Positions 20,367-62,545 of a stretch of 64,000 bases of DNA are shown piece after piece. This DNA is from Acidobacteriota bacterium (lineage in GTDB: Bacteria > Acidobacteriota > Terriglobia > Bryobacterales > Bryobacteraceae). The position numbers were made by a program, and so were the translations under genes. The notes beneath the pieces were generated by a model. That model did no database searches. It was not told the origin of the DNA and saw only the letters and a program-made list of their open reading frames with translations. The stretch is taken from assembly GCA_017307505.1 (NCBI GenBank), contig JAFKEE010000020.1, positions 186,001-250,000 on the forward strand. The letters are read 5' to 3'. Every line of letters begins with the position of its first letter. Within the stretch, counting starts at the first letter, position 1.

Positions 20367-20423
20367 AGAGGCTTTCACGCAGATTGCGCTCTGTGCGTCT
20401 TGCATGCTAATCTTAGGATTCAA

Positions 20424-20501
20424 GGGCGATGGAGTTCGCCATTAACCGCCTTCCATCCTTGCAGTCGGCAGGCTGATGACTCCTACGAATCTTCGTAGGA
20501 G
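20424..20501 (+). promoter_or_regulatory. Fluoride (crcB-motif) riboswitch, translational type
   Basis: GGCGA-TGGAGT-TCGCC (20425-20440) is the first hairpin, followed by ATTAACCGCC, a second stem region and GATGACTCC. Loop bases GGAGT pair with ACTCC at 20479-20483 in the pseudoknot. CTCCTACGA (20480-20488) can instead form a 9-base hairpin with TCGTAGGAG (20493-20501), and this last strand holds AGGAG, the only ribosome-binding site for the CLC gene at 20514. I infer that fluoride binding frees the site and turns translation on. The aptamer pattern is a strong match to the known class. Confidence 0.9.
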
Positions 20502-44789: not shown

Positions 44790-45038
44790 TCAACCCGTGT
44801 TGCGGGACGACGCTGGGCCATTGCCCCTTTCGTTTCCAGGCGGTTTACGCTCGGGGCACAGGCCACCCTTGGGTAAGGACATCAGCCACGCCGCGAGTGT
44901 GTCAGGATCGTAACGCACCAGCGAGCCCACCTTGATGTATTCCGGGCCGCGCCTCTCCAATCGCCAGCGGCGAAGGCAGGCGAGACTGACACGCAGCCGT
45001 TTCGAAACGTCGATTTCGGTTAACAGATTGGCATTCAT
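44790..45038 (-). CDS. Excisionase-like MerR/AlpA-type small DNA-binding protein
   Basis: 82 residues. TEIDVSKRLRVSLACLRRWRLERRGP followed by KVGSLVRYDPDTLAAWL is the helix-turn-helix of phage and ICE excisionases. A proline/arginine-rich tail has no clear fold. It lies just upstream of int in the same operon and should direct excision. AGGAG is 7 bases before its ATG. Confidence 0.8.
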   Translation of the reverse strand: MNANLLTEIDVSKRLRVSLACLRRWRLERRGPEYIKVGSLVRYDPDTLAAWLMSLPKGGLCPERKPPGNERGNGPASSRNTG

Positions 45039-45079: not shown

Positions 45080-45174
45080 CACGCTTACGCGGTATTATCA
45101 GTGTGCATCCGTTCGTCGAGGATGTCAAGCCTGATGAATCCGGGCGGGTATGGCTTCCTCCCCATTCCGCCGAT

Positions 45175-45399
45175 CCTGGCCGGGCACCGCTGCGCTGGAC
45201 GGCCGATGGCCTGGCCGCGCCACGGCGGGACGGCGAGCCTCTGCTTCCGCTTGCGCGGCCCTTCGGGTCTCGGCTCCCCCGAAATTCGCTGGCGCGAACC
45301 GCATTCGCTTTTCGGTTCCCCCGAGAAAGCGGCTCTTGCCCTGGGGAGCGGCCTCGCTTGCTTCTGAGTGCCCCGGCCAAGGCCGGCAGGCAGAAGGAG
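45175..45399 (+). repeat. GC-rich structured element, copy A
   Basis: The ends CCTGGCCGGGCACC (45175-45188) and GTGCCCCGGCCAAGG (45368-45382) are complementary apart from two one-base bulges, closing a loop of about 180 bases. Inner blocks CGCTGCGCTGGACGGC, GCCTGGCCGCGCC and GGGGAGCGGCCTCGCTTGCT match the copy at 58323 while the middle differs. It ends with AGAAGGAGA, the ribosome-binding site of the following gene. Open frames inside are artefacts of the composition. See findings for the covarying base pair. Confidence 0.65.
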
Positions 45400-45409
45400 A
45401 AGAAGCCTT

Positions 45410-45760
45410 ATGAAACGCCCGGCCATCAGCTTCACAATCACGGTCAACGCCGTCGTACACGTCTACGGCTGCCGCGAACGGCAGTCCCAGGAGGCTCGTG
45501 GATACTTTGGATTCCACGATGCGGAGCGCTGCCCCCATTGCCGGACCATCGATACCGGATTCGAATTCTGGGGTGAGAACGGTCACTGCCAGGGCTCCGC
45601 GCCGAACCGCGAGCGCATGGTGCATTGGATCGCAATCAAGGCCAAGCAGCAATGGCGCACCCAAGGCGGCCAAGTGATGGGCTACCGCTTCGTTAAGGGC
45701 GGCACGCTGCGTTACTGCGGTGGTTACCTCGGTGAATCGGAGGAAGAAAGCGGCGCTTAG
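45410..45760 (+). CDS. Hypothetical CxxC protein of the ICE
   Basis: 116 residues from ATG 45410, AAGGAG 10 bases upstream. FTITVNAVVHVYGC, ERCPHCRTIDTGFEFWGE and GGTLRYCGGYLG give three cysteine sites, with one CxxC that may bind zinc. No family is recognised. It is preceded by structured element A in the same way that ssb is preceded by element B, so it may be expressed early during transfer. Confidence 0.6.
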   Translation: MKRPAISFTITVNAVVHVYGCRERQSQEARGYFGFHDAERCPHCRTIDTGFEFWGENGHCQGSAPNRERMVHWIAIKAKQQWRTQGGQVMGYRFVKGGTLRYCGGYLGESEEESGA

Positions 45761-45767
45761 GCGCCGC

Positions 45768-45977
45768 TCAATCGCGTTCTCTTTGTCTTGTGACCCACCA
45801 CTTCAGCACGGTCAGTGCGCCGAAGGCGACGGCGAGAATCAGCAGCGCTTCCTGATCAGCCAACGTCACACTGCCGAACAGGTGTTGCCGGTTGGATGTC
45901 GCAAGGCTTGAGATCAAGCCAAAGATCGCGATTCCGGCGGCAGCCAACCCAATCTTGATGTCCCGGCGTTTGTTCAC
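45768..45977 (-). CDS. Small membrane protein
   Basis: 69 residues from GTG 45977 (AAGGTG just upstream), with two hydrophobic spans (IGLAAAGIAIFGLISSLA and ALLILAVAFGALTVLKWWV) and a basic tail. A longer frame to ATG 46073 would overlap the regulator gene. Similar small membrane proteins occur in many conjugative elements; none can be named. It follows the RHH gene on the minus strand. Confidence 0.5.
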   Translation of the reverse strand: MNKRRDIKIGLAAAGIAIFGLISSLATSNRQHLFGSVTLADQEALLILAVAFGALTVLKWWVTRQRERD

Positions 45978-46030
45978 TTGCACCTTCTTGCCAAGGTGCC
46001 CGCTGACAGGCCAGCTCTGGCGGCGCTTGG

Positions 46031-46435
46031 CTATAGGGGACGAATGTCCACCAAGCCCTTTTTCGAGAGCCATTGGGCCATGGCGGAGTTGACGATCACA
46101 TTTAACGACACGTCGCGCTTTTCGGCGGCGGCGCGGATCTTCTTGTACAGTTCATCGGACATGAACATGTTGACTTCGGGGGCCTTCGCTTCCATCGTGA
46201 TGTCGACGAGCGGCATTTTCAGGAAGTCGGCCGATTCGAGGGCGTCGATCATGTACGCGCTGAGTTCGCCCCGGCGCTTCATCAACGTGCGCAACGCGTC
46301 GTCCAGGGTGTTCAACAAGCGGTACGCCAGACGGATGCGGTTCTCCACATCAGCACCTCCCGGCTTCTGCCGGACGACCATCTTTTGTCCGGCTGGAACT
46401 ACAGCCACAAAGCGTTCTTTGGGGTTCTTTGCCAT
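46031..46435 (-). CDS. Ribbon-helix-helix DNA-binding protein, candidate transfer regulator
   Basis: 134 residues from ATG 46435. The C-terminal 40 residues (VNMFMSDELYKKIRAAAEKRD, then VSLNVIVNSAMAQWL) are a ribbon-helix-helix motif: one strand and two helices. The N-terminal half is basic and helical, perhaps for oligomerisation. The ATG lies directly after a perfect palindrome that overlaps the promoter -10, so the mRNA would be nearly leaderless and autoregulated. An upstream ATG at 46456 would put the palindrome inside the coding part and lacks a ribosome-binding site. Confidence 0.65.
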   Translation of the reverse strand: MAKNPKERFVAVVPAGQKMVVRQKPGGADVENRIRLAYRLLNTLDDALRTLMKRRGELSAYMIDALESADFLKMPLVDITMEAKAPEVNMFMSDELYKKIRAAAEKRDVSLNVIVNSAMAQWLSKKGLVDIRPL

Positions 46436-46450
46436 ACCATCTAGATGGTA
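46435..46450. promoter_or_regulatory. CTAG-centred operator, RHH gene promoter
   Basis: TACCATCTAGATGGTA is a perfect 16-base palindrome. On the minus strand a -35 TTCACA, 17-base spacer and -10 TACCAT place its left arm on the -10 itself. Related sites lie at 57230 and 62218. A further inverted repeat ACATCA-gccgga-TGATGT follows at 46453-46470. Confidence 0.65.
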
Positions 46451-46500
46451 CGACATCAGCCGGATGATGTGAAGCGAAAAATTCTAGTGCGGCTGCACAA

Positions 46501-47877
46501 TCAGTACGGGCGATACGGCGCATCGAACAGCAAGTCCCGGTTTACCCGTACGTTAAAGCGGTACCCGATGTCCACTTTGATCGTGGGTTGGATAAAGAGG
46601 TTCCGGCGAGTTGCCTCCGCGCCGATTTGTGCCATGTTCTGGGCCGCAGCCTGTCCTGCCAGTTCCTGCGCGCTCGGAACCGTGAACATGTTGCTGCGGC
46701 GGTTGACGGTGAGCTGCCCAGCGGCGGCGAAGAGGCTGGTCAGCGCACCCATGCCGAACAGGCGACCGTAGTGATTGTCGACCTTGTCGCGCAAGCCCGC
46801 CATGCCCTTAGCGTCCTGGCCCGACATGCCTTCGAGCACGACGGAAGAGCCATCCGGGAAGATGACGCGGTCCCACACCACTTGAATGCCGTTCTGCCCG
46901 TAGCTGATCCGGGACGAGTAGTTGCCCACCAGCCGCGACCCTTGCGGGATCAACAGGTATTTGCCTGTCGCCGTATCGAACACATTCTCCCGCACCAGGG
47001 CTTTGATCTCGCCAGGCAAGTCGGAGTTGAGAGCTTGTTCGAGAACGGCCGGGATGTCCCAGCCCACTTTGATCTCATAGCGCCCCAGTGCCTTCACCCG
47101 CGTACGGTTGAGATAGGTCTCCTGGTTCCGGGCCTTGGCTCGGTCGAGGAACTCTTCCTTCTCGTCCTGCGCGTTCTGTAGCTTGTACTCCTCCGCGCCG
47201 GAGACCGACTGACCACCGATGGAGATTCGTGGCATACCGGCTTGGGCGCTTCCCGCGCGGGCAGCCGCGTTGCCAGGACCTTGTAGGGCTTGCAGGAGTT
47301 GCGTCATCTGGGCCATGTCGGATTGGGCTGATGGCAATCCACCCGCTGTCCCGCCGCTGCGGTTCGCGGCCTCTCGCGCGGCAGTGGGCGCATCCATGGC
47401 CTCCAATTCCCGTTGCAGTGCCAGTTCGCGGCGACGCTCCTCGGGTGACGGCTGCGGCGGCGCGGAAGAGGTCGGATACTGAACCGGCGGTGGCGCAGGA
47501 GGATTCGCAGAGACGGTTGTCACGACGGCCGGTTTCGCTGGTCGATACGTGAGTGGCGGTGCCGTCAGATCTTCTGGCTTCTCCGGCACTGTTAACTGCT
47601 CGCGAACTTCGCCCGCAGGGCGCGCCGGGACCTTCGACGCGATGGTTTTCCCAACATCGGTCGCGGCGGTTACGTTCCGTCCGTCGTTCGCCTGGAACCC
47701 AAGTTTGAACTGGCGATCTCCGCGCGTCGCAATTCCGTAGAACAGCAACAGGCCAACAATGCCGAGTATCGCCACAGCGAGGATGCCCGCCCGTTTCGAC
47801 AGGCGCACCGAGTTGGGCGGCTTCGGATCGAGATCCAAGTGTGTGGGGCCGTGAAGGTCATTCTCCTTGATTGCCAT
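46501..47877 (-). CDS. trbI: TrbI/VirB10 family type IV secretion core protein
   Basis: 458 residues. A cytoplasmic tail, one membrane span near residue 35 (ILAVAILGIVGLLLFYGI), a proline-rich spacer (about 105-160) and a C-terminal VirB10 domain (PVxGxL-like LLIPQGSRLVGNYSSRISYGQ, RRSNMFTVPSAQELA). VirB10 spans both membranes and transmits ATP-driven changes to the pore. It is the last gene of the trb operon. Confidence 0.92.
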   Translation of the reverse strand: MAIKENDLHGPTHLDLDPKPPNSVRLSKRAGILAVAILGIVGLLLFYGIATRGDRQFKLGFQANDGRNVTAATDVGKTIASKVPARPAGEVREQLTVPEKPEDLTAPPLTYRPAKPAVVTTVSANPPAPPPVQYPTSSAPPQPSPEERRRELALQRELEAMDAPTAAREAANRSGGTAGGLPSAQSDMAQMTQLLQALQGPGNAAARAGSAQAGMPRISIGGQSVSGAEEYKLQNAQDEKEEFLDRAKARNQETYLNRTRVKALGRYEIKVGWDIPAVLEQALNSDLPGEIKALVRENVFDTATGKYLLIPQGSRLVGNYSSRISYGQNGIQVVWDRVIFPDGSSVVLEGMSGQDAKGMAGLRDKVDNHYGRLFGMGALTSLFAAAGQLTVNRRSNMFTVPSAQELAGQAAAQNMAQIGAEATRRNLFIQPTIKVDIGYRFNVRVNRDLLFDAPYRPY

Positions 47878-47886
47878 CGCTCCCTC

Positions 47887-48987
47887 CTACTTCTGCTCTA
47901 CTTCAGGCGGTGCCGTCTGTTCGGTCACGGCCTTGCCGAGCAGTTTGCCAGCGTCCTTGCCGCGATAAGTTCCGCGCACGATGTCAGCGCGGCGTTGCTT
48001 TTTGCCGACTCCGAGAATCAGCGCGCCGCGCTCGAAGAGACGGTCCACGATGTACAGGTCGCCCTTGACTCGGTAGTTCACCATCTCCGGGCCATTCGTG
48101 CCGACCACGACCAATACCGGCGCTTCGCGGACCGTGGCTCCGGCGGGCATTTGAACAAAGGTCTTTCGCCCGTCGTCCACCACTCGCACCGGGCGCAAGT
48201 ACTCATCGCCTCCCGTGATCCGGTAGTCGAAGTAGAGGTTCTCCAAACTCTCGACGGGCGAGAAGGTGGAGGTTTCCGCTTGTTGTTTGCGCTGCTTTTC
48301 CTCTTCCGCACGGAAGCGCTGCTGCCAACGCGCGGCTTCATTGTCGGGATACGCGAAGGCGACGCGGGCGAGATAGTCTTCCGGCTTGCTCACCAATCGA
48401 ACGTAGTAGGCGCGGCGGTCGGTCGGCACCAGGAGGTTCGTGTCGAGGCCTGCCTGTTTGGGCTTGATGACAATCATCTGCGACTCGGGTCTCCCGGCGG
48501 CGGCTGGCGAGATGGTCCAACGAACTGAGTCCCCGATGTGCGGCTCGCCGACGATCTTCTCGCCGGGTTCGAGTTCGAGAACGCAGACCCGAAGCGGCGC
48601 ACAGACGATCGTGGGAAGTCCGGCACCGAAGGTGTATAGAACGCGTCCGTCCTTGCCTGGCGCGGGCTCGTGCTTTTCGGTCATCCAACTCTTTCCCAAA
48701 GCGAGCGCGCCCTCGGCGGATTGCGAAATCGGAACGTCCTTGGGCGGCTCGGTCGCGACGACGGCTTCCACCTTCGCCGGGGCGGCAACGGGTGCTGGTG
48801 CTGCCCTCACTGGAGCGTCTTCTTGCAGCTTATTGAGAATCTGTTCGAACGGATACTGCTTCGGATCGGGCATGCCGGGCGGTGGTTGCCTCCGCACCGT
48901 CACCGGTGGTGGACTCGCTGGCACCTGCGTTGGCTCTTGCGCCAAGGCCGCGATCCCGGCGGCTAACAAAAAGGGAAAGAGTCTCAT
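47887..48987 (-). CDS. trbG: TrbG/VirB9 family outer-membrane core protein
   Basis: 366 residues with a signal peptide (LFPFLLAAGIAALAQ). VLYTFGAGLPTIVCAPLRVCVL is the conserved N-terminal strand of VirB9, and FDYRITGGDEYLRPVRVVDDGRKT the C-terminal domain. It forms the outer ring with VirB10. Spacing to the neighbours is 9 and 12 bases. Confidence 0.92.
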   Translation of the reverse strand: MRLFPFLLAAGIAALAQEPTQVPASPPPVTVRRQPPPGMPDPKQYPFEQILNKLQEDAPVRAAPAPVAAPAKVEAVVATEPPKDVPISQSAEGALALGKSWMTEKHEPAPGKDGRVLYTFGAGLPTIVCAPLRVCVLELEPGEKIVGEPHIGDSVRWTISPAAAGRPESQMIVIKPKQAGLDTNLLVPTDRRAYYVRLVSKPEDYLARVAFAYPDNEAARWQQRFRAEEEKQRKQQAETSTFSPVESLENLYFDYRITGGDEYLRPVRVVDDGRKTFVQMPAGATVREAPVLVVVGTNGPEMVNYRVKGDLYIVDRLFERGALILGVGKKQRRADIVRGTYRGKDAGKLLGKAVTEQTAPPEVEQK

Positions 48988-48999
48988 GACGGTCCTCCT

Positions 49000-49734
49000 T
49001 TACAACACACGGCTCCAACTGGCTTGAGTGACGTAGATTCCGAGCGGGTTGACGCGGGCCAGCGCTTCATCAGTGGGCGGATTCACCACAAGCGTGAACG
49101 CGCCTTTCCACCGCTGCGGCTCGCCGATCACGGTTCCGGCCATGCTGCGGGTGGTCTCGACCCACTCGACTTCGTATGTCCTCTCGGACGACGGGAAGAT
49201 CGCCTTCACCTCGACATCGACGGTCTGCTTCGCAGCCCGCTCGTGCGGCGGGTCCTTGCGGAAGTACTCGCTGATCGAGACTTGCGCCGGCGAGCCGGAG
49301 GCAATCATTGCGTACGTCCGGTCGATGGCTTTGCGCTGCGCGATGCCATCCATGGACACCAAGCGCCAATCGGCGATCCAGGAGTTGAGCGCGGCGCGCT
49401 TGAGGCGGTCATCGGCGATAGTGGCCTGTTCGGCTGGACCGCTGGCCACCGTGCGCCCGAGGCCGTCCACCGCCACAACGTAGGGCACGATGCGGGCTTG
49501 CTTCGAAATGACGATCATGCCGCCGACGGCCAAGAATGCAACTGCCGCCGTGACGAAGAACGCGGCTCGCCAGTTACGGGCGCGGCTGATGAGGTCGCCG
49601 TAGCGCTCATCCCATTCCTTGCGAGCGGCGAGGTACGGGTTGTGAACGGCGGCTGCCTTTTCCTTCGTTTGTTCATCCGACTTAGTGGACGCCTTGCGTT
49701 CTCGCAGTGGATTCCAGAGTGATGTCGTTGCCAT
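49000..49734 (-). CDS. trbF: TrbF/VirB8 family protein
   Basis: 244 residues: short cytoplasmic start (NPYLAARKEWDERYGDLISRA), one span near 60-80 and a periplasmic NTF2-like VirB8 domain (RKAIDRTYAMIASGSPAQ, YEVEWVETTRSMAG). It is the assembly scaffold of the apparatus. Confidence 0.9.
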   Translation of the reverse strand: MATTSLWNPLRERKASTKSDEQTKEKAAAVHNPYLAARKEWDERYGDLISRARNWRAAFFVTAAVAFLAVGGMIVISKQARIVPYVVAVDGLGRTVASGPAEQATIADDRLKRAALNSWIADWRLVSMDGIAQRKAIDRTYAMIASGSPAQVSISEYFRKDPPHERAAKQTVDVEVKAIFPSSERTYEVEWVETTRSMAGTVIGEPQRWKGAFTLVVNPPTDEALARVNPLGIYVTQASWSRVL

Positions 49735-49754
49735 GCGTTCTCATGCCTCCTTCT

Positions 49755-51905
49755 CTATTCGCCGCCATGCAGATTGAGTTGCGCCGGTCCGCCACCGCCC
49801 GCGCCGTCCGGCGGCAGGGCTTGGCGCAGCCCTTGGGTGAAACGCCCGGAGCGGTCGAGCGCCTGTTCAGCGATCTCGGCGGCGTTGGCGATCTTTTCCA
49901 TCGAAGAGCCTGCATCGCCTTGCGGCGTTTGCGCGGGTGCCACCGACATCGGGCTCGTGTTCTTCATGGGCGAGGTGATCGTTTGCGGACTTGTAATGGT
50001 CTGCGGATTCCCGAGCGAAGCGTTCTCGGATGGCAATGGCGGCGGTGATGGCTGATCCGGCGGCCTTGTGCCGAAGTGCCCGTAGACCACGTTCGACGGA
50101 GCGCTTGACGGCTGGTCCGGTGTAGTGGTCATTGGCGATGAGTTCTTCATCGGTTCGCTGACGGTTTGAGGCTTCTGAATAGTCTGCGGCGACCCAAGCG
50201 TCGCATCGTTTGACGGACTCATCGCGGCGTCCGCCGCTGATCCTGCGGCGGTAGGTGCATGGGTTGCACCTACTCCGGACGACACGTTGCTGATCGAGTC
50301 CATGGCCCCGTGAGAGAAGGCTGTCGCATCGTTGGCGGAAGCGCTTGAAGATTCTGGAGTCGAAGAGGCGCGAATGTCAGAACCTACGGCCAGCGGCGGC
50401 GCGGGCTGTCGTTTTGCCTCGACTGGCGCGGTGATTCCAGGAGCGGAGCGAGGGGGCGAAACCTGTGCCGGATCGCTTTGTGCGTTCGGGCTTGCTGGGC
50501 TCGCAGTGGATGTTTGCGCGGCGCTCGGACCAACCGCGTTCGCCCCACTTGGTGGAGTTGGTTGTGTGGAGGCCGGGGCCCGGTTCGCCTGCCCCTGGCT
50601 CGATTGCGCGGATGTCTGCGAGTTGTTGGTGGTGCTCCCAGGCGAGGGAGCACCCGTTCCTCCGAGAGATGGCGGTTTCGGTTGCCCGCTTCCGCCACCC
50701 GCGCCAACGCCGCCATTCGGCGAGCCGCCGTTACCAGAACCTTTTCCGCCGGCGCCGTTGCCGTTATTGCCCGCACCGCCACCAGTTCCGGCCGCACCAC
50801 CGGCTTGGCCGCCTGACGCGGCGGACGCAACTGAAGAGTTCGCCATCATGCCGGAGCTACCGGCACTGCCCGCGCCCATGCTAGCGGCCTGGTTAACAGT
50901 CATCGCACCGCCAGCCGCCGCGCTGCGGGCCGCGAGCAGTTTCACCGCGCCCGCGCCAAGGGTTGCGACGGCGATACCGGCCTGCGCACCGGCAAGGCCG
51001 ACAGCGGCGATGTCGCCGCCGGAGAAGTTCGGCGAACCGCCGAGCAATGACGCAGTGAACTTCGGGGCCTGCCAGCACAGGATGCCGAAGATGATTGCGC
51101 CGCCCATGATGTCGAGCGCTTCCATGATCGGCGAAGCCGCAGCAGCAGCCGACAGAGCTCGGGCCGACCACGCGGCACTCAAGGTCATGCCCGCGCCGAT
51201 GAGCATATAGAGCACCATCAACTTCACTCCCACTGCGACGGCCAAAGCAATGTAGCGTTCCACGTACGGCGCGGTCCATCGCGAACCGCCAAAGCCCAAG
51301 AAGATGAATCCCGCTCCAACGACAACGTAACTTTCAACGAGCGCCATGATGAAGTGAACGGAGACGATGACGAACGCAAGGAATGTGAGCACCGCCGCCA
51401 ACACCAAAGCCAATGCGCTTGCAGGGTTGACAAAGAATCCCGCTGTACTGGCGGAGTCTCCCAGGGCCGCAGCCACATCCAGTCCACGCATGAATACGGC
51501 ACCTGGAGAAAGTCCAACGCCTCCGATACCCGCGGCGTTCTGGCCAACAATCGCGAAGCTGTCGATGATTGCTGGAATCCAGGCCGGGCCGTTCACCAGA
51601 AGCGCCATGAATGCGCCGACAAACATCATTCGACGGATGAGTGCTGCTGTCCAGCCTTGCAGGTCTGCCTTGTCCAGCACCAGGATAACCGCCGTCCATG
51701 CGAATTCAATTAGAGCGAGCAGGCCGAATAAACGATTGGCCGCTCCGCTTGCGGCAGCGAACCAGTTCGGCCTGAGGCCACGGAAGGTGTCGAGGAGATC
51801 GCCCGGTGTTTGACCGTACTGCGCCAACGCCGTCGCCGGCAAGATGAGCAGCGCGCCGAATGCCCAAATGGCAACAGGAATCCTGTTGCGTACGCGGTAC
51901 GCCAT
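49755..51905 (-). CDS. trbL: TrbL/VirB6 family polytopic membrane protein
   Basis: 716 residues. A signal or first span, then about six more spans to residue 330 (RRMMFVGAFMALLVNGPAW, VVGAGFIFLGFGG), followed by about 370 residues of low-complexity glycine, serine, proline and alanine. The tail holds two repeats of the pattern SPQT...MKN(S/T)SPM near residues 595 and 670. The long tail could reach into the recipient or pack around the inner channel. TrbL proteins are usually about 450-530 residues. Confidence 0.88.
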   Translation of the reverse strand: MAYRVRNRIPVAIWAFGALLILPATALAQYGQTPGDLLDTFRGLRPNWFAAASGAANRLFGLLALIEFAWTAVILVLDKADLQGWTAALIRRMMFVGAFMALLVNGPAWIPAIIDSFAIVGQNAAGIGGVGLSPGAVFMRGLDVAAALGDSASTAGFFVNPASALALVLAAVLTFLAFVIVSVHFIMALVESYVVVGAGFIFLGFGGSRWTAPYVERYIALAVAVGVKLMVLYMLIGAGMTLSAAWSARALSAAAAASPIMEALDIMGGAIIFGILCWQAPKFTASLLGGSPNFSGGDIAAVGLAGAQAGIAVATLGAGAVKLLAARSAAAGGAMTVNQAASMGAGSAGSSGMMANSSVASAASGGQAGGAAGTGGGAGNNGNGAGGKGSGNGGSPNGGVGAGGGSGQPKPPSLGGTGAPSPGSTTNNSQTSAQSSQGQANRAPASTQPTPPSGANAVGPSAAQTSTASPASPNAQSDPAQVSPPRSAPGITAPVEAKRQPAPPLAVGSDIRASSTPESSSASANDATAFSHGAMDSISNVSSGVGATHAPTAAGSAADAAMSPSNDATLGSPQTIQKPQTVSEPMKNSSPMTTTPDQPSSAPSNVVYGHFGTRPPDQPSPPPLPSENASLGNPQTITSPQTITSPMKNTSPMSVAPAQTPQGDAGSSMEKIANAAEIAEQALDRSGRFTQGLRQALPPDGAGGGGPAQLNLHGGE

Positions 51906-51929
51906 GACGAAGCCCTCACTGTTGGTTCG

Positions 51930-52259
51930 TTAGTACTTCCGGGGATCAGTTCCCAAGGGACGGTAGCTGGTCTGTCGGACAACAAGAGCGGCGGTGCAAA
52001 CCCGCCCCTCGGCCCTGTCGCTCCAAGCCGCATCAGCGGCCTTCTTCAGCGGCTCACATTGCGCCCAGAGTTCGTCAGCGTATGCCGTCCCCCTCTTCTT
52101 CACCCATTGCGTTATGGATTCGAGCGAAGCCTTTTCGACCTCTCCCGCTCCATCGCGCTTGACCTTCTCGACAATGACGCTGGCAGGTTCTTTGTTGCAT
52201 CCGGCTGCCAGCAGAGCCAGCGCAACAGTTGTAACGGAAAGGGTGCGCCTCATACCCAT
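51930..52259 (-). CDS. Small lipoprotein in the trb operon (TrbK/EexN-like position)
   Basis: 109 residues. TVALALLAAGCNKEP has a lipobox with Cys near residue 20. The rest has two further cysteines (WAQCEPL and GRVCTAAL) that may form a disulfide. Position between trbJ and trbL corresponds to trbK, the entry-exclusion lipoprotein of P-type plasmids; sequence similarity cannot be shown. A VirB7-like role is the alternative. Confidence 0.6.
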   Translation of the reverse strand: MGMRRTLSVTTVALALLAAGCNKEPASVIVEKVKRDGAGEVEKASLESITQWVKKRGTAYADELWAQCEPLKKAADAAWSDRAEGRVCTAALVVRQTSYRPLGTDPRKY

Positions 52260-52263
52260 GAGG

Positions 52264-52995
52264 CTAGTACTTCCTTGGGTCCGGCGCAGCCACCACGCGG
52301 TTGAAAAACTTCTCGGTCGCTGCGGTGGCCGTCGCGTCCTTCTGGATCTGCGCGGCCTGGAATGCCTGCTTGCCTTGCAAGTCGGCGAGCATGATCTGAC
52401 GTAGCTTCATCATCTGCTGGATCATGTGCTCATTGATCTGGTTGGCCACCTGAATCGCCTTCAGCCGCCCGTCGCTCGAAGTGGACATCGTGCGCAACTG
52501 ACGGAGGATTGCCTCCTCGCTATTCATCTGGCTGGCTTGAATGTTCGCGGCCTTCAGCGCACCGAGTGACGTGTCGAGCGAGGTCTGCGCCCAGTCGCGA
52601 TACTTCAGGTACCAGGCATTGCCGGCATAACCGTAGCCGGTGAAGCGGTTGCGGAACTCGGCATCGAGGTTCGCCATCGAGTAGGCGAGAGCGCGGCCGT
52701 TTTGAACGACGCCATGTAGGTTGGCGATCTCGGCCATGATCGGGCCGAAGATCTGCATCGGCAACTCGGTGGCCTGCTTCGCCATGTCGGCCACCATCAG
52801 GATCTTCTGGCGGAGTTCCTCGCCTTGCCGAATGTAGGTGGTAACGAGTTGGACGTTGTTCGCGAGTTGGGTCCACTCGGTCGCGAAGCCGCCCAGGACT
52901 CCGGCTTGCACCGGTGGCGGCGTGAAGCTGGTGAGGAGGAGCGTGTAAGCGACGGTACCGCTCAACACGCGTTTGGAGTAGCTGCCGAGTCTCAT
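52264..52995 (-). CDS. trbJ: TrbJ/VirB5 family protein
   Basis: 243 residues, signal peptide near the start (GTVAYTLLLTSFTPPPVQA), then a long helical protein (QLANNVQLVTTYIRQGEELRQ, ANQINEHMIQQMMKLRQIM). It is a minor pilus or adhesion component. Start overlaps the trbE stop by 4 bases. Confidence 0.88.
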   Translation of the reverse strand: MRLGSYSKRVLSGTVAYTLLLTSFTPPPVQAGVLGGFATEWTQLANNVQLVTTYIRQGEELRQKILMVADMAKQATELPMQIFGPIMAEIANLHGVVQNGRALAYSMANLDAEFRNRFTGYGYAGNAWYLKYRDWAQTSLDTSLGALKAANIQASQMNSEEAILRQLRTMSTSSDGRLKAIQVANQINEHMIQQMMKLRQIMLADLQGKQAFQAAQIQKDATATAATEKFFNRVVAAPDPRKY

Positions 52996-55457
52996 GCGGA
53001 TTGTCTCCTTTTCAAACTGAGGTCATGTTGCAGGAAAGCCGCCCAGTCGTCGAGTCCGCGCATGCGGAGCCACTGGACCGGCCAGGTCGGACCGTATTGA
53101 TCGATCGCGTCTTCGGCCAATTGCCGCTCTTCGCGGCTGGAGATGCCGACGAACGACAGCGCGACACCGCCCAGGCCGAGCGCAATCAATCGCCGGCCTA
53201 TCGATGAAACGACGTAGTATTGCCGCTTCGGGATCGAGTTCTGAACGATCTCGATCTCGCGTTCGTTCAGGCCGATCGATTCGTAGAATTCCTTCGAGGA
53301 CGGATTGCCGGCTTCCGCGTTCGGCAACAGCACCTTGGTCGGGCACGATTCGAGGACGACATCCTTGATCGGCGAGTTGAAGATGTCGGAAAGATTTTGC
53401 GTCGCGAGCACGACTGCGCCGTTGAACTTGCGCAGCGTCTTCAGCCATTCGCGAATCCGCTCCCGGAAGAGAGGGTGACGCAGATAGACCCAGGCTTCAT
53501 CGAGCGGAACGAGCGTTGGTGATCCATCGAGCCTCTTCTCGATGTGCCGGAAAAGATAGAGCAGTACGGCGACGACAGCCTTCTCGCCCATGTTGAGCAG
53601 ATGCTCGGTTTCAAAAGTCAGGAATCGCCCCGAGCCGAGCATATCCTCGCGGGCATCGAGCAGATGGCCCATCGGTCCGCCGAGCGTGTAGTATTGCAGC
53701 GCTTCGCGAACGCCTTCGTCCTGGACGTTCGCGACCAACTCCGTCATGGTTCGCGTTGGCGAGGATTGCAGGAGCAGCACTGCCTCGCTGATCGCGTTGC
53801 GGTGACGCGGCGTCACCGTGAAGCCTTGCAGCAGGCAGAGCGCTTCGAGCCAATCGACGGCCCAGGCGACATCCGAGGGAGTGTCGATCTCGCGCAAGGG
53901 ACAGAATGCCCACTGCGTCTTTTCCCCGCCGATGTCGTAGAAATCGCCACCGGCCGCTTTGGTCAGGCACAGGAGCGAATAACCCTTGTCGAAAGCAAAC
54001 ACTTGGGCGTGCGGATAGCGAAACCACTGCGCGGTGACGAGCCCAAGAAATGTACTCTTGCCAGCGCCGGGCGGCCCGATCATGAGCGTGTGTCCCAGGT
54101 CGCCGACGTGGATGTTGAAGCGGAACGGCGTCGCGCCGGAAGTCGCGGCATAAAGCAGGGGCGGTGCCGGTTGGCCACCGGACTTCATCATCGGCGACGG
54201 ATTCTCCTTCATCCCAGCCCAGACCGCCGTAATCGGCATCATGTCGGCCAGGTTCAGCGTGTGGAGCATCACGCGGCGGACGTTCCGATAGCCGTCGCCC
54301 GGCAGGCTGCCGCGCCAGGCTTCGACGGCATTGATCGTCTCCAGGCGACAACCGAAGCCGAGGTTCTGCATCGTCTTGACGACCAGCGCGGCGCTTTCCT
54401 CGCAACGGGCTTCGCTTTGATCGAACACCAGAACGCAGGTGTTGTAGTAACAAAAGTGCACATCACCCGAGGCGGCCACGCCCATCGCTTCCTCGGCATC
54501 GGTGGCCATCTCTTGCGCGAAGAGATTGATCGGGCCAGTTTCGGTTTTCATCAGCTGGTCTTTCCAGCCGCGGATCTTGCCTCGCCACTTGCGGCGTTCT
54601 TTGTCAAGCAGCGCGCGCGCTTCTTCTGGATCGAGCAACAAAGCCCGTGTCTGCCAGCGGTACTCAATCGGCAAGGTGTCGAGCGCACCGAGGATGCCGG
54701 GGAAGCTCAATCGCGGGAACCCGTCCAGGGCAACCACGCGCACATGTTTCGAACCAATGCGCGGCGAGATGCCGGCCACGAGGTCCTGTGTGGCCAAAAT
54801 GTCGTTCAGATACGCTGGAACACCTGGCAATGCGATGGGATGGTCGAGCGTCGTCAGGCAGCGGTGAACGAAGCGGAGCAACTCATCGTGAATCACTGGC
54901 CATCCGTGGGCGTCGATGGATTCGATCCGGCCCAGGCGGCGCACCTGAAAGAGCGAACTGAAGATGTCCTCGAAGCTCGCCACGCGGCCTTTGAAGTAGT
55001 CGAGCGACCGTTCCGCGCTCGACTTGAACTCGCGCTGCCCTTCGAACATCCAGCCGCGGATCTTCTCTTCGGTTTGTTCCGGCGGCAGATACGTCAGAGT
55101 GAGGAAGTAGTCAGTTTCGAAATGCGCATGGTCCGAGCGGAACTGCTGTTCGCGTTCGATGTCGATGAGCCGCGTGATCGGATCTGGAAATGCGCCCTTG
55201 TCGGGATAACCCGGCGAGGCGGATCGGATGGCATCTACTTGGACCAGCCAACCACTTCCGAGCCGGAGGATCGAGTTCAGTCGCGCGCTTAACGCGGCCA
55301 TCTCGGCGTGTGTGGCAGACGCCATATCCGGCCCGCGAAACGACCATCCGGCGAGCAGCGCCCCGTCCTGCAACAGAAGGACGCCGTCGTCGATGATCGA
55401 ATCGTAGAGGAGTAGATCCGCGAGTCCGGCGGCCTTGCGGCGATGTTCGATCACCAT
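52992..55457 (-). CDS. trbE: TrbE/VirB4 ATPase
   Basis: 821 residues. Walker A GPPGAGKSTF near residue 465, Walker B LVPLDEAWVYL near 650 and the C-terminal VLATQNLSDIFNS arginine-finger region are intact. N-terminal CagE-like domain contains SAERSLDYFKGRV. The ATPase energises pilus assembly and substrate transfer. A 582-codon frame on the opposite strand is only its shadow. Confidence 0.95.
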   Translation of the reverse strand: MVIEHRRKAAGLADLLLYDSIIDDGVLLLQDGALLAGWSFRGPDMASATHAEMAALSARLNSILRLGSGWLVQVDAIRSASPGYPDKGAFPDPITRLIDIEREQQFRSDHAHFETDYFLTLTYLPPEQTEEKIRGWMFEGQREFKSSAERSLDYFKGRVASFEDIFSSLFQVRRLGRIESIDAHGWPVIHDELLRFVHRCLTTLDHPIALPGVPAYLNDILATQDLVAGISPRIGSKHVRVVALDGFPRLSFPGILGALDTLPIEYRWQTRALLLDPEEARALLDKERRKWRGKIRGWKDQLMKTETGPINLFAQEMATDAEEAMGVAASGDVHFCYYNTCVLVFDQSEARCEESAALVVKTMQNLGFGCRLETINAVEAWRGSLPGDGYRNVRRVMLHTLNLADMMPITAVWAGMKENPSPMMKSGGQPAPPLLYAATSGATPFRFNIHVGDLGHTLMIGPPGAGKSTFLGLVTAQWFRYPHAQVFAFDKGYSLLCLTKAAGGDFYDIGGEKTQWAFCPLREIDTPSDVAWAVDWLEALCLLQGFTVTPRHRNAISEAVLLLQSSPTRTMTELVANVQDEGVREALQYYTLGGPMGHLLDAREDMLGSGRFLTFETEHLLNMGEKAVVAVLLYLFRHIEKRLDGSPTLVPLDEAWVYLRHPLFRERIREWLKTLRKFNGAVVLATQNLSDIFNSPIKDVVLESCPTKVLLPNAEAGNPSSKEFYESIGLNEREIEIVQNSIPKRQYYVVSSIGRRLIALGLGGVALSFVGISSREERQLAEDAIDQYGPTWPVQWLRMRGLDDWAAFLQHDLSLKRRQSA

Positions 55458-55461
55458 ACGC

Positions 55462-55773
55462 TTACCTCCACTTCCGCGGCGTCCCGACAGACGCGGCGTC
55501 GATTCCCGACTTCGCGGGATAGAACGGCCGATACTTCACATGGCGCACATAAACGAGCCGCATCAGCGGGTCAGCCTTGCCCATGCGCGACAGGACGGCG
55601 ACCGCGAGAATCCATAAAGTGATCCCGATGGCGAGTCCCCACCAGGTGACGAGAGCAAAGATGAGCATGGCCGCCAACATGCCGCAGAGCAGCACGAGTT
55701 CGCGGTCACAGCCCAGCAGGAGGTTGGGCCGGTTGCAGGATTGATGGATGACGATTTCGCGCGGCTTTTCCAT
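55462..55773 (-). CDS. trbD: TrbD/VirB3 inner-membrane protein
   Basis: 103 residues. EIVIHQSCNRPNLLLGCDRELV then two spans (LCGMLAAMLIFALVTWWGLA and IGITLWILAVAVLSRM) are typical. Four bases separate it from trbE. Confidence 0.88.
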   Translation of the reverse strand: MEKPREIVIHQSCNRPNLLLGCDRELVLLCGMLAAMLIFALVTWWGLAIGITLWILAVAVLSRMGKADPLMRLVYVRHVKYRPFYPAKSGIDAASVGTPRKWR

Positions 55774-55794
55774 GTTGCCCTCCGGCCCTCTTCC

Positions 55795-56172
55795 TCAAAC
55801 CACCAGCGCGCCGCCGACACCGAAGAGCGATGTCATGAACCCCGCGCCCAGTACCAAAAACGCAATGGCGAGCACAGCCACGCAAGACCGCCGCGCAAAC
55901 TCGCTCAGTTCGCCGCCGAACACGAGCGTGCCACCAGCCACCATCAGCGCGATCAGCGAGATGGAAAGCGCCACGGGGCCGGTAAGCGAAGTGGCCACGC
56001 GGCTGAGCGGCGTCTCCCACGGCAGTCCGCCGCCACCACCGCCGCCCGCGAGCGCCACTTGGGCGGCAAGCAATACGAAAAGCAGGACCGTCATGGCGTG
56101 TCGCTTGCGACGGTCGAGGGTACAGACTTGAGTTGTCATCGAGCGCATCTCCTTTGCGATTGAGTTAGACAT
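55795..56172 (-). CDS. trbC: TrbC/VirB2 pilin
   Basis: 125 residues. A long signal peptide (about 25-45) ending in ALAGGGGGGGLPWE, then two hydrophobic helices (SLTGPVALSISLIALMVAG and SCVAVLAIAFLVLGAGF). The mature pilin would be about 75 residues. The seven-glycine run is unusual next to the cleavage site. The start overlaps the trbB stop by 8 bases. Confidence 0.88.
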   Translation of the reverse strand: MSNSIAKEMRSMTTQVCTLDRRKRHAMTVLLFVLLAAQVALAGGGGGGGLPWETPLSRVATSLTGPVALSISLIALMVAGGTLVFGGELSEFARRSCVAVLAIAFLVLGAGFMTSLFGVGGALVV

Positions 56173-57214
56173 ACGTCACCAGGTACTTGCCGGTGGCGGC
56201 GTCGAACCCGGTGACCACCATCAGTTCGCGGACCTTGCGGCCCGCGGGAAGTTCGCCGTCTTCGTCGATGAAGACGACAAGATCGACGGCCTCAGCGATG
56301 AGCGATTGCTGCGGCGCGGCGGTCGCCTCGGCGACTAGGCTTTCGAGGCGCACGAGTCCGCTCAGGGCGTCATTCGCGTGGACTGTCGCCACGCCGCCGG
56401 GATGGCCGGTGTTCCAGGCCTTGAGCATCACGTGCGCCTCGGCTCCGCGCACTTCGCCGACGATGATCCGTTTCGGCTTCAGGCGCATGCAGGCGCGGAG
56501 GCATTCGAGCATCGAGACCGATGCGAAGGCGCGCAGATCGACATAGTTGTCCACCGGGCAGCGCAATTCCATCGTGTCTTCGATGGTGATGACGCGGTCG
56601 TTCGGATGAGTCGCGGCAATTGCCTCGAGGCACGCGTTCACAAGCGTCGTCTTGCCGCTGCCAGTGGAACCGACGATGAGAATGTTCTTGCGCTCGGCGA
56701 TGGCTTTGCGCAGAATGTCGAGGTGCGAGACGCCTTCGAGTGTTGCGGCGAAGTTTTCGCGACGGCGGGCGCGGTTGCGCGGATCATCAATCCCGGTGAG
56801 GATGCCGGACTGCGCGTATTCGTTCAGTGAGAAGATGCGGCGGGGACGGAGCCGAATGGCAAACGCTGGTTTCGGCACTACCGGAGGCAGCAGCCCTTCA
56901 AAGCGGCTTCCATCAATTGGCAACTCGGTTTCGAGAATCGGCCGGTCATAGTTGACCACCGTGCCGCGTTGAGTGGCGATGGTTCCCATCGCGGCTTGCG
57001 CCTGCGTGGCGGAAAGCTCGCCGATCTGTTTCCAACCATCGCCTTGCCGATTCACCCAAACCTTGCCATCCGGGTTGAGGCAGACATCCTCGGATCGATG
57101 ATCCGCGAGAGCTGCCAGGACCTGTTCGCCCAGTTCACGCCGGAGCTTTTCATCCAGCCGCGATTGCTGTTGGTCTCGACCGGCGATCTGAATCGGCGCT
57201 TGATTGGCTGCCAT
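56165..57214 (-). CDS. trbB: TrbB/VirB11 ATPase
   Basis: 349 residues. Walker A GSTGSGKTTL near 182, Asp box TIEDTMEL, Walker B-like KRIIVGEVRGAEAH and His box GHPGGVATVHAN are all intact. N-terminal domain begins after about 25 residues. It is the first gene of the operon, GAGG ahead of ATG 57214. Confidence 0.94.
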   Translation of the reverse strand: MAANQAPIQIAGRDQQQSRLDEKLRRELGEQVLAALADHRSEDVCLNPDGKVWVNRQGDGWKQIGELSATQAQAAMGTIATQRGTVVNYDRPILETELPIDGSRFEGLLPPVVPKPAFAIRLRPRRIFSLNEYAQSGILTGIDDPRNRARRRENFAATLEGVSHLDILRKAIAERKNILIVGSTGSGKTTLVNACLEAIAATHPNDRVITIEDTMELRCPVDNYVDLRAFASVSMLECLRACMRLKPKRIIVGEVRGAEAHVMLKAWNTGHPGGVATVHANDALSGLVRLESLVAEATAAPQQSLIAEAVDLVVFIDEDGELPAGRKVRELMVVTGFDAATGKYLVTYV

Positions 57215-57229
57215 GAGTGCCTCGCAAGA

Positions 57230-57287
57230 AACTATCTAGACGGTCCCGCCTAAGCAGTTTATAATTCCAATCGACCGGATCTGTCAA
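57230..57287 (-). promoter_or_regulatory. trb operon promoter with CTAG operator
   Basis: On the minus strand TTGACA (57287-57282) is followed after 18 bases by TATAAA (57263-57258), a strong sigma-70-type promoter. A CTAG-centred imperfect palindrome (AACTATCTAGACGGTC, 57230-57245, 12 of 16 positions as in the 46435 site) lies over the start region between promoter and trbB. Binding there would block the operon. Confidence 0.65.
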
Positions 57288-57341
57288 GGCCTTTTCTTTG
57301 CGGTAGTTACGGCTCGCAGCCGGTAGCAAAGGAGCGTCAGA

Positions 57342-58199
57342 ATGCACCGAACGCAAGAAGCGATTCAGAAACACTTGGAGGCGATTCGGTCGCCTCTTTA
57401 CGAAATCGGCGTCTTCTTTCCCGCCGCCTCGGCGGGCGCGGATTCGAAGATGCTGTTGCGCACTTGGGATGAGGTGACGATCTTTAAGTCCGTTCCGTGG
57501 CTCCGTGCGAAGAACACGGAAGGGGCGGCAATCTACATCCGGCCCAAGGGCGAGCATCCGTACAGTCTGGTTGACGACCTAACCGCCGAAGCGGTGCATC
57601 GGATGCGCCAGGAAGGCTACATGCCGGCCATCGTGGTCGAGACGTCGCCGGGCAACTTCCAAGCCTGGCTCAACCACGGTGAGACGCTCGACCGCCGCAC
57701 TTCCACTCAAGCCGCCCGAGCATTAGCGGAGCGATTCGGCGGCGACCCCGGCGCAGCGGACTGGCGGCACTTCGGACGACTCGCGGGCTTCACGAATCGT
57801 AAGCCGGCCTATAGCGGAAGGGATGGGCTGTTTCCGTTCGTCCGCATCGTCGAATTCCAACCTGGCGTCTATCCGATGGCTCCTGGCTTCGTCGGCGACG
57901 TTCGCCGCACCGAGATCGAACAGCGCAGAGTACCGCGCAACAGTTCTGCCAGCGCTCACCGTGGATCGCTATCTATCGACGACTTCCGCGCCGACCCTCG
58001 ATACAGCGGTGACGGCAACCGAATCGATCTGGCCTATGCGCTCTACGCACTTGGACACGGCGGGACGGAGGACGCCGTCGGAGCCGCCATACGAACGCGG
58101 GATCTCTCAAAGAAGGGATCGGAGGCGCGCCAGTCGGCTTACGTGGCCCGCACTATCGAGAAAGCCCGCACGCAGTTGGGCAGCAGCCTCCGTCGCTAG
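57342..58199 (+). CDS. RepB-type DNA primase domain protein
   Basis: 285 residues. IFKSVPWLRAKNTEGAAIYIRPKG, the long AIVVETSPGNFQAWLNHGETLD and ADWRHFGRLAGFTNRKP are the RepB/primase-like (AEP-type) core, with H in RHFGRLAGF likely catalytic. A C-terminal helical domain (RIDLAYALYALGHGGTEDAV) follows. Such proteins prime replication of transferred strands or drive ICE replication. Divergent from the trb operon. Confidence 0.8.
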   Translation: MHRTQEAIQKHLEAIRSPLYEIGVFFPAASAGADSKMLLRTWDEVTIFKSVPWLRAKNTEGAAIYIRPKGEHPYSLVDDLTAEAVHRMRQEGYMPAIVVETSPGNFQAWLNHGETLDRRTSTQAARALAERFGGDPGAADWRHFGRLAGFTNRKPAYSGRDGLFPFVRIVEFQPGVYPMAPGFVGDVRRTEIEQRRVPRNSSASAHRGSLSIDDFRADPRYSGDGNRIDLAYALYALGHGGTEDAVGAAIRTRDLSKKGSEARQSAYVARTIEKARTQLGSSLRR

Positions 58200-58322
58200 T
58201 CGGTGACTCCGGGGCGTGGCGTGCCGCGACCGTCAGCGAAGATTGCGGTGTGGTTCAGGCTGTCGGACCAAGATGCCCGAACCCACGTCGTTCCATCCAT
58301 CGATTGCTCCCCTTGCCGCCGA

Positions 58323-58555
58323 CCTTGACCGGGCACCGCTGCGCTTGACGGCGTGACCGCCTGGCCGCGCCCTGCGTTCGTCTCCGCTCTGCTTTGCCGG
58401 TTCCCCCAGCCGGATTCCGCTCTGCGAGTTCGTTCGCTGCGCTCACCGGAATCCGCCCGGTCTCCCCCAACAAAGCACTCCGACTCGCCGCTTCGCTCTT
58501 GGGAGCGGCCCCGCTTGCTTTTGGGTGCCCCGGTCAAGAGACGGGGCAGAAGGAG
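58323..58555 (+). repeat. GC-rich structured element, copy B (in front of ssb)
   Basis: CTTGACCGGGCACC (58324-58337) pairs with GGTGCCCCGGTCAAG (58524-58538) with one bulged base, enclosing about 186 bases. Inner blocks CGCTGCGCTTGACGGC, CGCCTGGCCGCGCC and GGGAGCGGCCCCGCTTGCTT match copy A at 45175. It ends in AGAAGGAGA 5 bases before the ssb ATG region. The A58328-T58534 pair here is G45179-C45377 in copy A, a compensatory change. Confidence 0.65.
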
Positions 58556-58563
58556 ACAACGAA

Positions 58564-58923
58564 ATGTTCAACAACGTGACTTTGATCGGCTACCTCGGCT
58601 CCGACGCCGAATCCCGTACCACCCGCAACAACACCGCCATGACGGTTCTCTCGCTGGCGACCAAACGCACCTGGAAGAACCGCGAGACCGGCGAACGCGA
58701 GTCACAGACCACCTGGCATCGCTGCGTGACCTTCGGGCGCACGGCGGAGTACGCGGCCACTTTGACCAAGGGCGCGCACCTCCAGATCCTCGGCGAGATC
58801 CAGACGCGTGAGTACACCGGCAAGGACGGCGTGAAGAAGTCCGTCACCGAGATCCGCGTGCAGCGCATCGCCCGGCTCGACCGTGCGCCGAAGACCGAGT
58901 CCGCCGAGGGGGCCGCCGCGTAA
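58564..58923 (+). CDS. ssb: Single-stranded DNA-binding protein
   Basis: 119 residues with one OB fold: FNNVTLIGYLGSDAESRTTRN, then LSLATKRTWKNRETGERE, TTWHRCVTFGRTAEYA and GAHLQILGEIQTREYTGKDG. The acidic DDDIPF-like tail of chromosomal SSB is missing (it ends in AEGAAA), so it probably does not recruit host repair proteins. Expected to coat incoming transferred strand. Confidence 0.92.
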   Translation: MFNNVTLIGYLGSDAESRTTRNNTAMTVLSLATKRTWKNRETGERESQTTWHRCVTFGRTAEYAATLTKGAHLQILGEIQTREYTGKDGVKKSVTEIRVQRIARLDRAPKTESAEGAAA

Positions 58924-58955: not shown

Positions 58956-59408
58956 ATGACGATGAAAGCATCCCGTCGCGAGTCACTGATCCTCGATCAT
59001 CTGCCGCAAGTCGAACTCCTGGCGCGCCGCCTTCACCGGCGGTGTCCGCAAGTCGAACTCGACGATCTGATCCAGGCCGGCACCATCGGTCTCATCCAAG
59101 CAGTGGACCGCTACGACGAATCACGCGGCTGTCTGCTGAAGACAATCGCTGAGCACCGGATTCGCGGTGCGTTGCTCGACTACCTCCGGCAGATCGATCC
59201 GCTGCCTCGGAATATCCGTCGGTTTCAGAAGCAGCGCGATGCTGTGATCGTTGAACTGAACCGCGCCGGCATGAGCCCGTCGCTGGAAGACGTCGCTACG
59301 CGGCTCGGAGTTCCGGTCAAGAAATACGTGCGACTCTCAATTGCCGTCCTCGCGTCAGACACCCTTTCGATCGAGGAACTCTCTTGTGTCCAGAGGCTCG
59401 CCGGGTAG
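58956..59408 (+). CDS. Short sigma-70-family factor (regions 2 and 3 only)
   Basis: 150 residues from ATG 58956, GGAAGGAG 7 bases upstream. LPQVELLARRLHRRCPQVELDDLIQAG with GLIQAVDRYDESRGCLLKTI is sigma region 2 of the FliA/WhiG type, and RIRGALLDYLRQID to SLEDVATRLGVPVKKY is region 3. Region 4 (-35 contact) is absent. A factor without region 4 could still recognise a -10 or act as an anti-sigma or adaptor partner. No missing part is found downstream in other frames. Confidence 0.75.
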   Translation: MTMKASRRESLILDHLPQVELLARRLHRRCPQVELDDLIQAGTIGLIQAVDRYDESRGCLLKTIAEHRIRGALLDYLRQIDPLPRNIRRFQKQRDAVIVELNRAGMSPSLEDVATRLGVPVKKYVRLSIAVLASDTLSIEELSCVQRLAG

Positions 59409-62256: not shown

Positions 62257-62545
62257 GCCCCTGTGCCGAAAATGTTGCCGTAGTTGTCTGCAACGGCGTC
62301 CGAACGGCTCCCCTGTGGCTCCGCAGCGTTACCGGGGCGATTCCGTCACGATGCCGGAACAGTGCCAAAGTGCCGTTCTTGGCCGATTGTCAGTCGCCAT
62401 CGCTACGAATCAGCCATAGGTCGGCGACGGAAGAGGCGGTAGTGGAACATAAAGGCATGTGCACCACAGGGCCGTGATTTCGCCTCTTGATTCGTGATTC
62501 AATTTGCCTTATCGTGTGAAACAGAGGCAGTCACGGCGGTGCCAC
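62257..62545. other. oriT: Probable oriT region
   Basis: The space between divergent traK and the mobilization accessory/relaxase genes is where P-type elements carry oriT. AAGAGGCG (62431-62438) and CGCCTCTT (62481-62488) are perfect inverted arms 42 bases apart; GTTGC/GCAAC (62274/62290) and TTGATTCGTGATTCAA (62487-62502) are smaller repeats. No exact IncP-like nick consensus is recognised, so the nick site is unknown. Confidence 0.5.

Follow-up and report, generated by a model that had tools for sequence, protein, structure and literature searches.

Two related elements precede ssb and a CxxC gene in a conjugative element

The window analyzed here is a stretch of 64,000 nucleotides from the 9.4 Mb genome of an Acidobacteriota bacterium of the family Bryobacteraceae (GenBank assembly GCA_017307505.1, contig JAFKEE010000020.1, positions 186,001 to 250,000), and within it lie genes of an integrative and conjugative element (ICE) together with two copies of a structured element, A and B, each on the plus strand in the orientation of the gene behind it. 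When the family is aligned the element is about 240 bases long, with A at 45163-45403 (nhmmer 7.8e-48) and B at 58313-58559 (nhmmer 2.9e-63). The covariance model R1 described below matches A at 45181-45394 with 185.3 bits and B at 58330-58553 with 162.6 bits, both copies being among the 18 sequences of the model. A and B share 70% identity (E 3.7e-16) with near-identical end blocks, and within the window a 33-base consensus block is confined to A and B, with no match in 100 shuffles. The outer stem of A is formed by 45177-45187, containing G45179, and 45368-45379, containing C45377; that of B is formed by 58325-58337, containing A58328, and 58524-58537, containing T58534 (all arms on the plus strand and read from the sequence, the 5′ arm of B from folds as well). 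The sequence AGAAGGAG closes both copies, 10 nt ahead of the ATG of the CxxC gene for A and 8 nt ahead of the ATG of ssb for B. The original prediction had located two copies here, with ends that pair within each copy, a terminal ribosome-binding site and a compensatory change between G45179-C45377 and A58328-T58534, which falls inside the outer stems; all of this was borne out, and only the length, given as roughly 210 bases, had to be extended. We also observed an alternative partner for the outer-stem 3′ arm, the sequence preceding the ribosome-binding site (45368-45400 and 58524-58550; GCCCCGGTCAAGAGACGGGGC in B), and by eye many copies are alike in this.

The left side of the ICE holds a tyrosine integrase gene (43642-44763, minus strand; PF00589, 1e-25) and a small helix-turn-helix gene (44790-45038, minus strand; PF12728, 4.4e-6), which is excisionase-like by its position beside A. 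Behind A comes the CxxC gene (45410-45760, plus strand), an open reading frame for which Pfam, NCBIfam and PHROG gave no match at the limits used; homologues stand immediately behind an element in loci L089 and L094, and another is present in L070. Type IV secretion genes of the VirB10/TrbI, VirB4 and VirB11 types follow on the minus strand (46501-57214), and a RepB-type DNA primase gene (57342-58199, plus strand; PF16793, 1.7e-34) lies just upstream of B. Directly behind B is ssb (58564-58923, plus strand; PF00436, 1.4e-27), followed by the gene for a FliA/WhiG-type sigma factor (58956-59408, plus strand; PF04542, 1.3e-12; TIGR02479 over positions 1-135 of 224), in which region 2 was matched and region 4 was not. 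Regions 2 and 4 are both present in two sigma factors encoded directly behind an element in other loci (L082:5506-6129 and L088:2515-3117). Farther along are a NikA-like relaxosome accessory gene (62546-63001, plus strand; PF21983, 3e-7) and a relaxase gene of the MobA/VirD2 type (62958-64000, plus strand), an open reading frame that runs beyond the window to the equivalent of 64430 and matches PF03432 at 4.7e-6 and RlxS at 2e-50, the latter under its curated cut-off. Then come ArdC, the coupling protein and, at the contig equivalent of 69389-69820, a second ssb that lies behind the coupling protein gene as in betaproteobacterial plasmids. Large genes at the contig equivalent of 73033-80981, similar to defense helicases (DruE-like and DpdE-like according to PADLOC), are possible defense cargo.

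The elements form a family that precedes leading-type genes

A third copy, 85% identical to B and ahead of another ssb, is present elsewhere in the same genome; outside the window on contig C57, R1 reached at most 14.8 bits and no third copy appeared in the stretches examined. Among 257 genomes of the order, BLAST matched B in 43 and A in 38, short partial matches counted. R1, made from 18 copies, matched 47 of the 257 genomes and 27 of 396 genomes sampled over the phylum, although matches at the low end (about 30 bits) could be due to chance; one of these overlaps a relaxase fragment. The further copies in related ICEs and the covariance model for which the original prediction had called are thus available.

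R1 gave 89 matches in 77 sources, and removal of 3 duplicates left 86 distinct copies, of which 5 stop at a contig end and 81 are clear of it. We found that 74 of these 81 stand directly ahead of six leading-type gene families: ssb (60), CxxC (4), radC (4), sigma factor (3), DNA methylase (2) and ardC (1). Of the remainder, four precede other genes (three in L089 and one in L153) and three look degenerate (L084, L070 and L103). SSB, methyltransferase and anti-defense genes are kinds reported from plasmid leading regions (PMC11541004). In the contig G139:C152 (L089), five copies lie on one strand within about 7 kb, ahead of five genes that include ssb and CxxC. The other three, whose products begin MTNQPL, MNSAQNW (both without a Pfam match) and MNRETV, are candidates for further leading-region functions. 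A FliA-type sigma gene was matched in 29 of 96 sources (22 distinct stretches), often shortly after ssb, and in three copies it is immediately behind the element.

This gene context bears on an explanation in which the elements are sites for priming only, where the folded transferred strand would start second-strand synthesis through the RepB-type primase or a host primase and the position before genes would be incidental. The primase gene directly upstream of B agrees with it, as do the RepB-type primase matches in 20 of the 96 sources (some of them overlapping stretches), and a primer-only role for the adjacent primase is the main rival to the interpretation developed below. It does not account for the 74 of 81 copies that directly precede a leading-type gene, a ribosome-binding site intervenes in the copies inspected, and five copies ahead of five genes in about 7 kb exceed what priming needs. 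We consider such a role unlikely.

Searches beyond these genomes gave no relatives. A plasmid collection yielded no blastn match to A or B, R1 had no match in stretches of one acidobacterial, two Pseudomonas and one Desulfosarcina plasmid or of F, and viral contigs did not match the element pattern. The only non-acidobacterial pattern matches (two contigs of one Myxococcota metagenome-assembled genome, among 26 stretches) hold an unrelated palindrome. At the Rfam gathering score the window gave nothing for the elements, and a search of the region of A up to E 5 gave three matches far below threshold. Two fluoride riboswitches in the window (5509-5574 and 20416-20492) scored above gathering.

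The fold covaries across the family

The common structure consists of an outer stem (GGGCAC/GTGCCCC), a small hairpin (GGCC/GGCC), a stem formed by GCCGCGCC and GGGAGCGGC, and an apical part in which two C-rich strands lie opposite each other. In the alignment of 18 copies (A2), 14 of 36 pairs have changed on both sides and 88.7% of cells are paired, rising to 96.0% in the outer stem (helix 1). The two apical helices are weaker, with 65.7% and 78.3% paired, and the two main subfamilies align poorly there. When the observed covariation was compared with 500 shuffles, none reached it in four of five measures, and in the fifth, which counts further pair types, 44 of 500 did. Sliding the partners against each other lowered the paired cells from 88.7% to 28-48%. 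Folding energy of single copies at best modestly beats shuffles (z -2.3 to +0.3) and is too weak alone. We conclude that the fold of the family covaries, so that the selected fold for which the compensatory pair had first argued holds in a larger alignment.

For the group alignments, 43 full-length matches were collapsed to 33 by merging near-identical copies; L103_3572 and L088_2282 were excluded from one group alignment and from the RNase P comparison. The same 33 copies are 199-294 nt long and fall into all three length classes modulo 3 (9, 11 and 13 copies), which makes it unlikely that the elements are remnants of a coding gene, a possibility raised with the original prediction; codon conservation was not tested. 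Open frames cross the element in 28 of the 33 copies, which is unsurprising for such G+C-rich sequence.

Wobble asymmetry places the fold on the template strand

A fold in RNA tolerates G-U on the mRNA strand, whereas a fold on the complementary strand shows there as A-C. We counted both in a structure shared by the two strands and computed without G-U pairs. In 59 sequences of seven subfamilies, A-C was found in 54 columns and 109 cells and G-U in 25 columns and 37 cells (binomial on columns, p 0.0015). RNase P from the same order, for which 25 of 30 fetched loci were used, gave the reverse, with A-C in 11 columns and 21 cells and G-U in 37 columns and 184 cells (Fisher on columns, 6e-7). Counting single steps from the majority pair gave 47 A-C to 20 G-U for the elements and 6 to 29 for RNase P. 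The excess of A-C over G-U comes both from G-C pairs (30 to 15; p 0.036, or 0.051 against unpaired rates) and from A-U pairs (17 to 5), and in unpaired columns G>A (64/138, 46%) and C>U (122/278, 44%) are without bias, so mutation bias is not the explanation. Alifold energies favored the antisense strand in six of seven subfamilies and the sense strand for RNase P, and by folding z-scores 23 of 33 copies favored antisense (p 0.012). When eight Frpo sequences were taken through the same pipeline (the fetched L264 and L269 excluded), A-C exceeded G-U by 12 columns to 7 and alifold gave -179.9 antisense and -154.5 sense. In assembling the subfamilies L088_2282 was omitted, L103, L090 and L089_1358 were regrouped, and L233, L244, L246, L247, L249 and L253 were placed in none. 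We conclude that selection acts on the fold in the template strand, the complement of the mRNA. With the genes after A and B lying on the plus strand, the minus strand serves as their template, and the fold of element A would act there.

The asymmetry runs in the same direction as in Frpo and opposite to RNase P, which favors single-stranded DNA and disfavors a structured RNA leader that would act in cis on the translation of ssb and the other genes. A leader of this kind would suit the covarying fold, the 5′ untranslated position beside the ribosome-binding site and, in many copies inspected by eye, the alternative pairing of the 3′ arm just before that site. Yet G-U on the mRNA strand (37 cells over 2 ordered pair types) is per type about as frequent as other mismatches (123 over 8) and less frequent than A-C (109 over 2); alifold prefers the opposite strand in six of seven subfamilies while RNase P behaves as RNA; and the element has no Rfam match at the gathering score. 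We rejected the RNA leader on the wobble result, since G-U is not tolerated on the mRNA strand as it is in the RNase P control, and regard it as very unlikely. The original prediction had left open single-strand promoters and RNA leaders, and of the two it is the former that this test favors.

The strand preference also bears on two other explanations. A small structured antisense RNA of the leader, made from the opposite strand, would place the fold on the strand where it is selected, but many G-U pairs would then be expected there and only 109 of 3362 cells (3.2%) hold one, compared with 184 of 1914 (9.6%) in RNase P; this we consider highly improbable. If instead the elements were double-stranded regulatory DNA, either the site of a regulator or a sequence like the EGeRS, with the inverted repeats serving as operator half-sites or a cruciform, then both strands should be equal, and the 54 to 25 columns are at odds with this. 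Nor would an operator call for nested pairing at long range over about 240 bases, with 14 pairs changed on both sides. On the other hand, no sigma-70 promoter was seen in the element fold, and the EGeRS are an example of conserved sequences at establishment genes for which a single-strand promoter role was rejected (PMC8708921). We think it quite unlikely that the elements are regulatory sites of this type. A primer-only role shares its strand logic with a single-strand promoter, and the wobble test cannot separate those two. The test itself needs nothing beyond alignments to tell whether folding takes place in one DNA strand or in an RNA of the other, and could reveal further cases.

Element genes read toward the relaxase and a putative oriT

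Upstream of the NikA-like gene, the sequence GGTAGTGGAACATAAAGG (62438-62455, no strand assigned) is conserved upstream of NikA homologues. The overlapping 11-mers TAGTGGAACAT, AGTGGAACATA and GTGGAACATAA were found in 28 of 28 such upstream regions, which were taken from 32 NikA matches after exclusion of L115 (the same place as L111), L124, L133 and L138. The core also occurs with 1-3 mismatches ahead of the same relaxase type in Acidisarcina, Diaphorobacter and Comamonas plasmids, and from this conservation it is likely the oriT. The putative oriT region lacks the nic consensus of IncP-type systems, YATCCTGY, and therefore gives no nicked strand by that route. In a Tn4371-family ICE, a 20-bp conserved sequence with CAAAAGG upstream of the relaxase gene belongs to the essential oriT (PMC11448139).

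R1 and relaxase matches occur together on 15 contigs. In 11 of them (G000:C57, G000:C17, G139:C85, G153:C47, G138:C26, G098:C10, G097:C101, G009:C117, G046:C3, G218:C121 and G109:C11) the relaxase is downstream of the element, on the same strand and at most 18 kb away; G000:C17 and G046:C3 have an additional relaxase 70-85 kb off. On plasmid F, ssb, psiB and the tra genes share a strand, and ssb and psiB precede traM. The oriT of F lies between ssb/psiB and the tra genes. In these 11 contigs the genes read toward the relaxase and the oriT-like core, an arrangement shared with the leading region of F. According to Samuel et al. (PMC11541004), relaxase genes usually belong to the lagging region, and if this is so here, with the relaxase side entering last as usual, the minus strand would be the one transferred, the elements would fold on the incoming strand and the genes behind them would be readable from it. 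The type IV secretion genes, being on the minus strand, would be unreadable from a minus-strand T-strand.

Candidate single-strand promoters of the leading region

Taken together, we think it probable that the elements serve as single-strand DNA control sites in the leading region of a conjugative element. As the most economical reading, and the one we favor in our analysis, each would be a single-strand promoter that works like Frpo. The transferred minus strand would fold at each element on entering the recipient, and the partly double-stranded structure so formed would recruit RNA polymerase, perhaps with a sigma factor encoded by the element. Transcription would begin close to the base of the fold, immediately ahead of the ribosome-binding site, and SSB and anti-restriction proteins would thereby be made ahead of the second strand; synthesis of that strand would undo the fold and silence the site. 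The element RNA may double as a primer; that Frpo RNA serves as one is stated in the title of the Frpo paper cited by PMC9849209 and PMC11541004.

Several points weigh against this reading. No sigma-70 -35/-10 pair was seen at A or B, and in the 3′ half of the elements the mean best score was 6.76 of 12, compared with 7.11 in shuffled sequence, other sigma types not having been searched; for pLS20, its authors used the lack of -35/-10 boxes as one argument against single-strand promoters (PMC8708921). The wobble counts ignore shared ancestry, the Frpo control is small at 12 to 7, G-U columns exceed A-C by 4 to 2 in the subfamily acB_short, and in acA_long the columns are level at 3 to 3 with the energy slightly preferring sense. 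Some queries of the search that gave 89 R1 matches came from the searched loci, as did the radC, ardC, methylase and sigma queries behind the gene counts, which have Pfam support. Four of the 15 contigs depart from the layout: the relaxase is upstream on the same strand in G093:C610 and G015:C39, G045:C133 has two weak matches about 40 kb or more distant, one per strand, and in G139:C34 a weak match that is probably chance overlaps a relaxase fragment. The nicked strand is inferred, and no inverted repeat marks one side of the oriT core (right 3.86, left 4.54, shuffles 4.16-4.17).

The frequent FliA-type sigma gene near the elements makes a dedicated, element-encoded sigma factor a possible reader of them, which we offer as conjecture. 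A possible lead is TTGGGA, which recurs with a T-rich run 15-17 nt downstream of it. In a more extended form, which we consider doubtful, single-strand promoters independent of Frpo in sequence would drive an early regulon throughout the phylum, comprising SSB, RadC, ArdC, a DNA methylase, the CxxC protein and the sigma factor, and would be read by RNA polymerase with the FliA-type sigma factor of the element, which would in turn be expressed from one of these sites. If that were true, the incoming strand would carry a promoter and the reader of that promoter together.

Among the listed titles and abstract openings on single-strand promoters, leading regions (also with sigma factors), ICEs and Acidobacteriota conjugation, with subscription papers and preprints outside this scope, we found no description of such elements in Acidobacteriota. 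Should the single-strand promoter reading be correct, a family in another phylum that is unrelated in sequence would point to repeated origins of the trick and to single-strand promoters as a general solution to the immediate need for SSB and anti-restriction proteins. The leading-region genes behind the five copies in about 7 kb, CxxC included, become anti-defense candidates as well.

Comparison with known systems

The ssi sites of the RSF1010 primase fold on a single DNA strand. The acidobacterial elements are like such primase sites in that a primase gene lies beside B, and they share a fold on a single DNA strand with the sso of ICEBs1; unlike sso and ssi, they precede genes with ribosome-binding sites and occur several per element. 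Betaproteobacterial plasmids with a DUF3363 relaxase, from Diaphorobacter and Comamonas, have a related relaxase and an oriT core with 2-3 mismatches, and they share the gene order of primase, oriT core, relaxase, metallopeptidase, coupling protein and ssb. They differ in that no ssb or sigma gene is annotated between primase and relaxase, and in two of them R1 gave no convincing match (one at 8.6 bits).

The EGeRS of pLS20-family plasmids are likewise conserved non-coding sequences that regulate establishment and anti-restriction operons; compared by description only, they are longer than the acidobacterial elements (PMC8708921). The transferred strand of pLS20 is the non-template strand, so the strand question there is decided the opposite way (PMC8708921), whereas the acidobacterial elements fold on the template strand, the one transferred if the usual relaxase rule holds.

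In the papers covered here, single-stranded DNA promoters have been demonstrated in F and IncI-type plasmids and proposed for relatives. The elements resemble Frpo1 and Frpo2 of F and ssi of ColIb-P9 in being long imperfect hairpins before ssb and other leading genes, in having more than one copy and in ending just ahead of the ribosome-binding site (PMC9849209, PMC11541004), and they share with Frpo the wobble asymmetry toward the template strand. They differ in being G+C-rich, in lacking recognizable sigma-70 -35/-10 boxes and in often lying near a FliA-type sigma gene, and in a 20-kb piece of F (L261) with both Frpo copies R1 found nothing up to E 1. Membership in Frpo by homology was rejected on the missing R1 match in F and the missing blastn match in plasmids, and with neither homology nor -35/-10 boxes found, the elements are filed apart from Frpo. 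The original prediction had suggested an independent counterpart of the hairpin promoters of F-like plasmids, and the template-strand fold before ssb, together with the lack of detected homology, agrees with this, while the unrecognizable sigma-70 hexamers do not. Frpo-like candidates have likewise been proposed before leading-region genes beyond F, by their fold and their likeness to -35/-10 boxes (PMC11541004). Those candidates were chosen by sigma-70 hexamers and similarity to Frpo (PMC11541004), a selection that the acidobacterial elements would escape.

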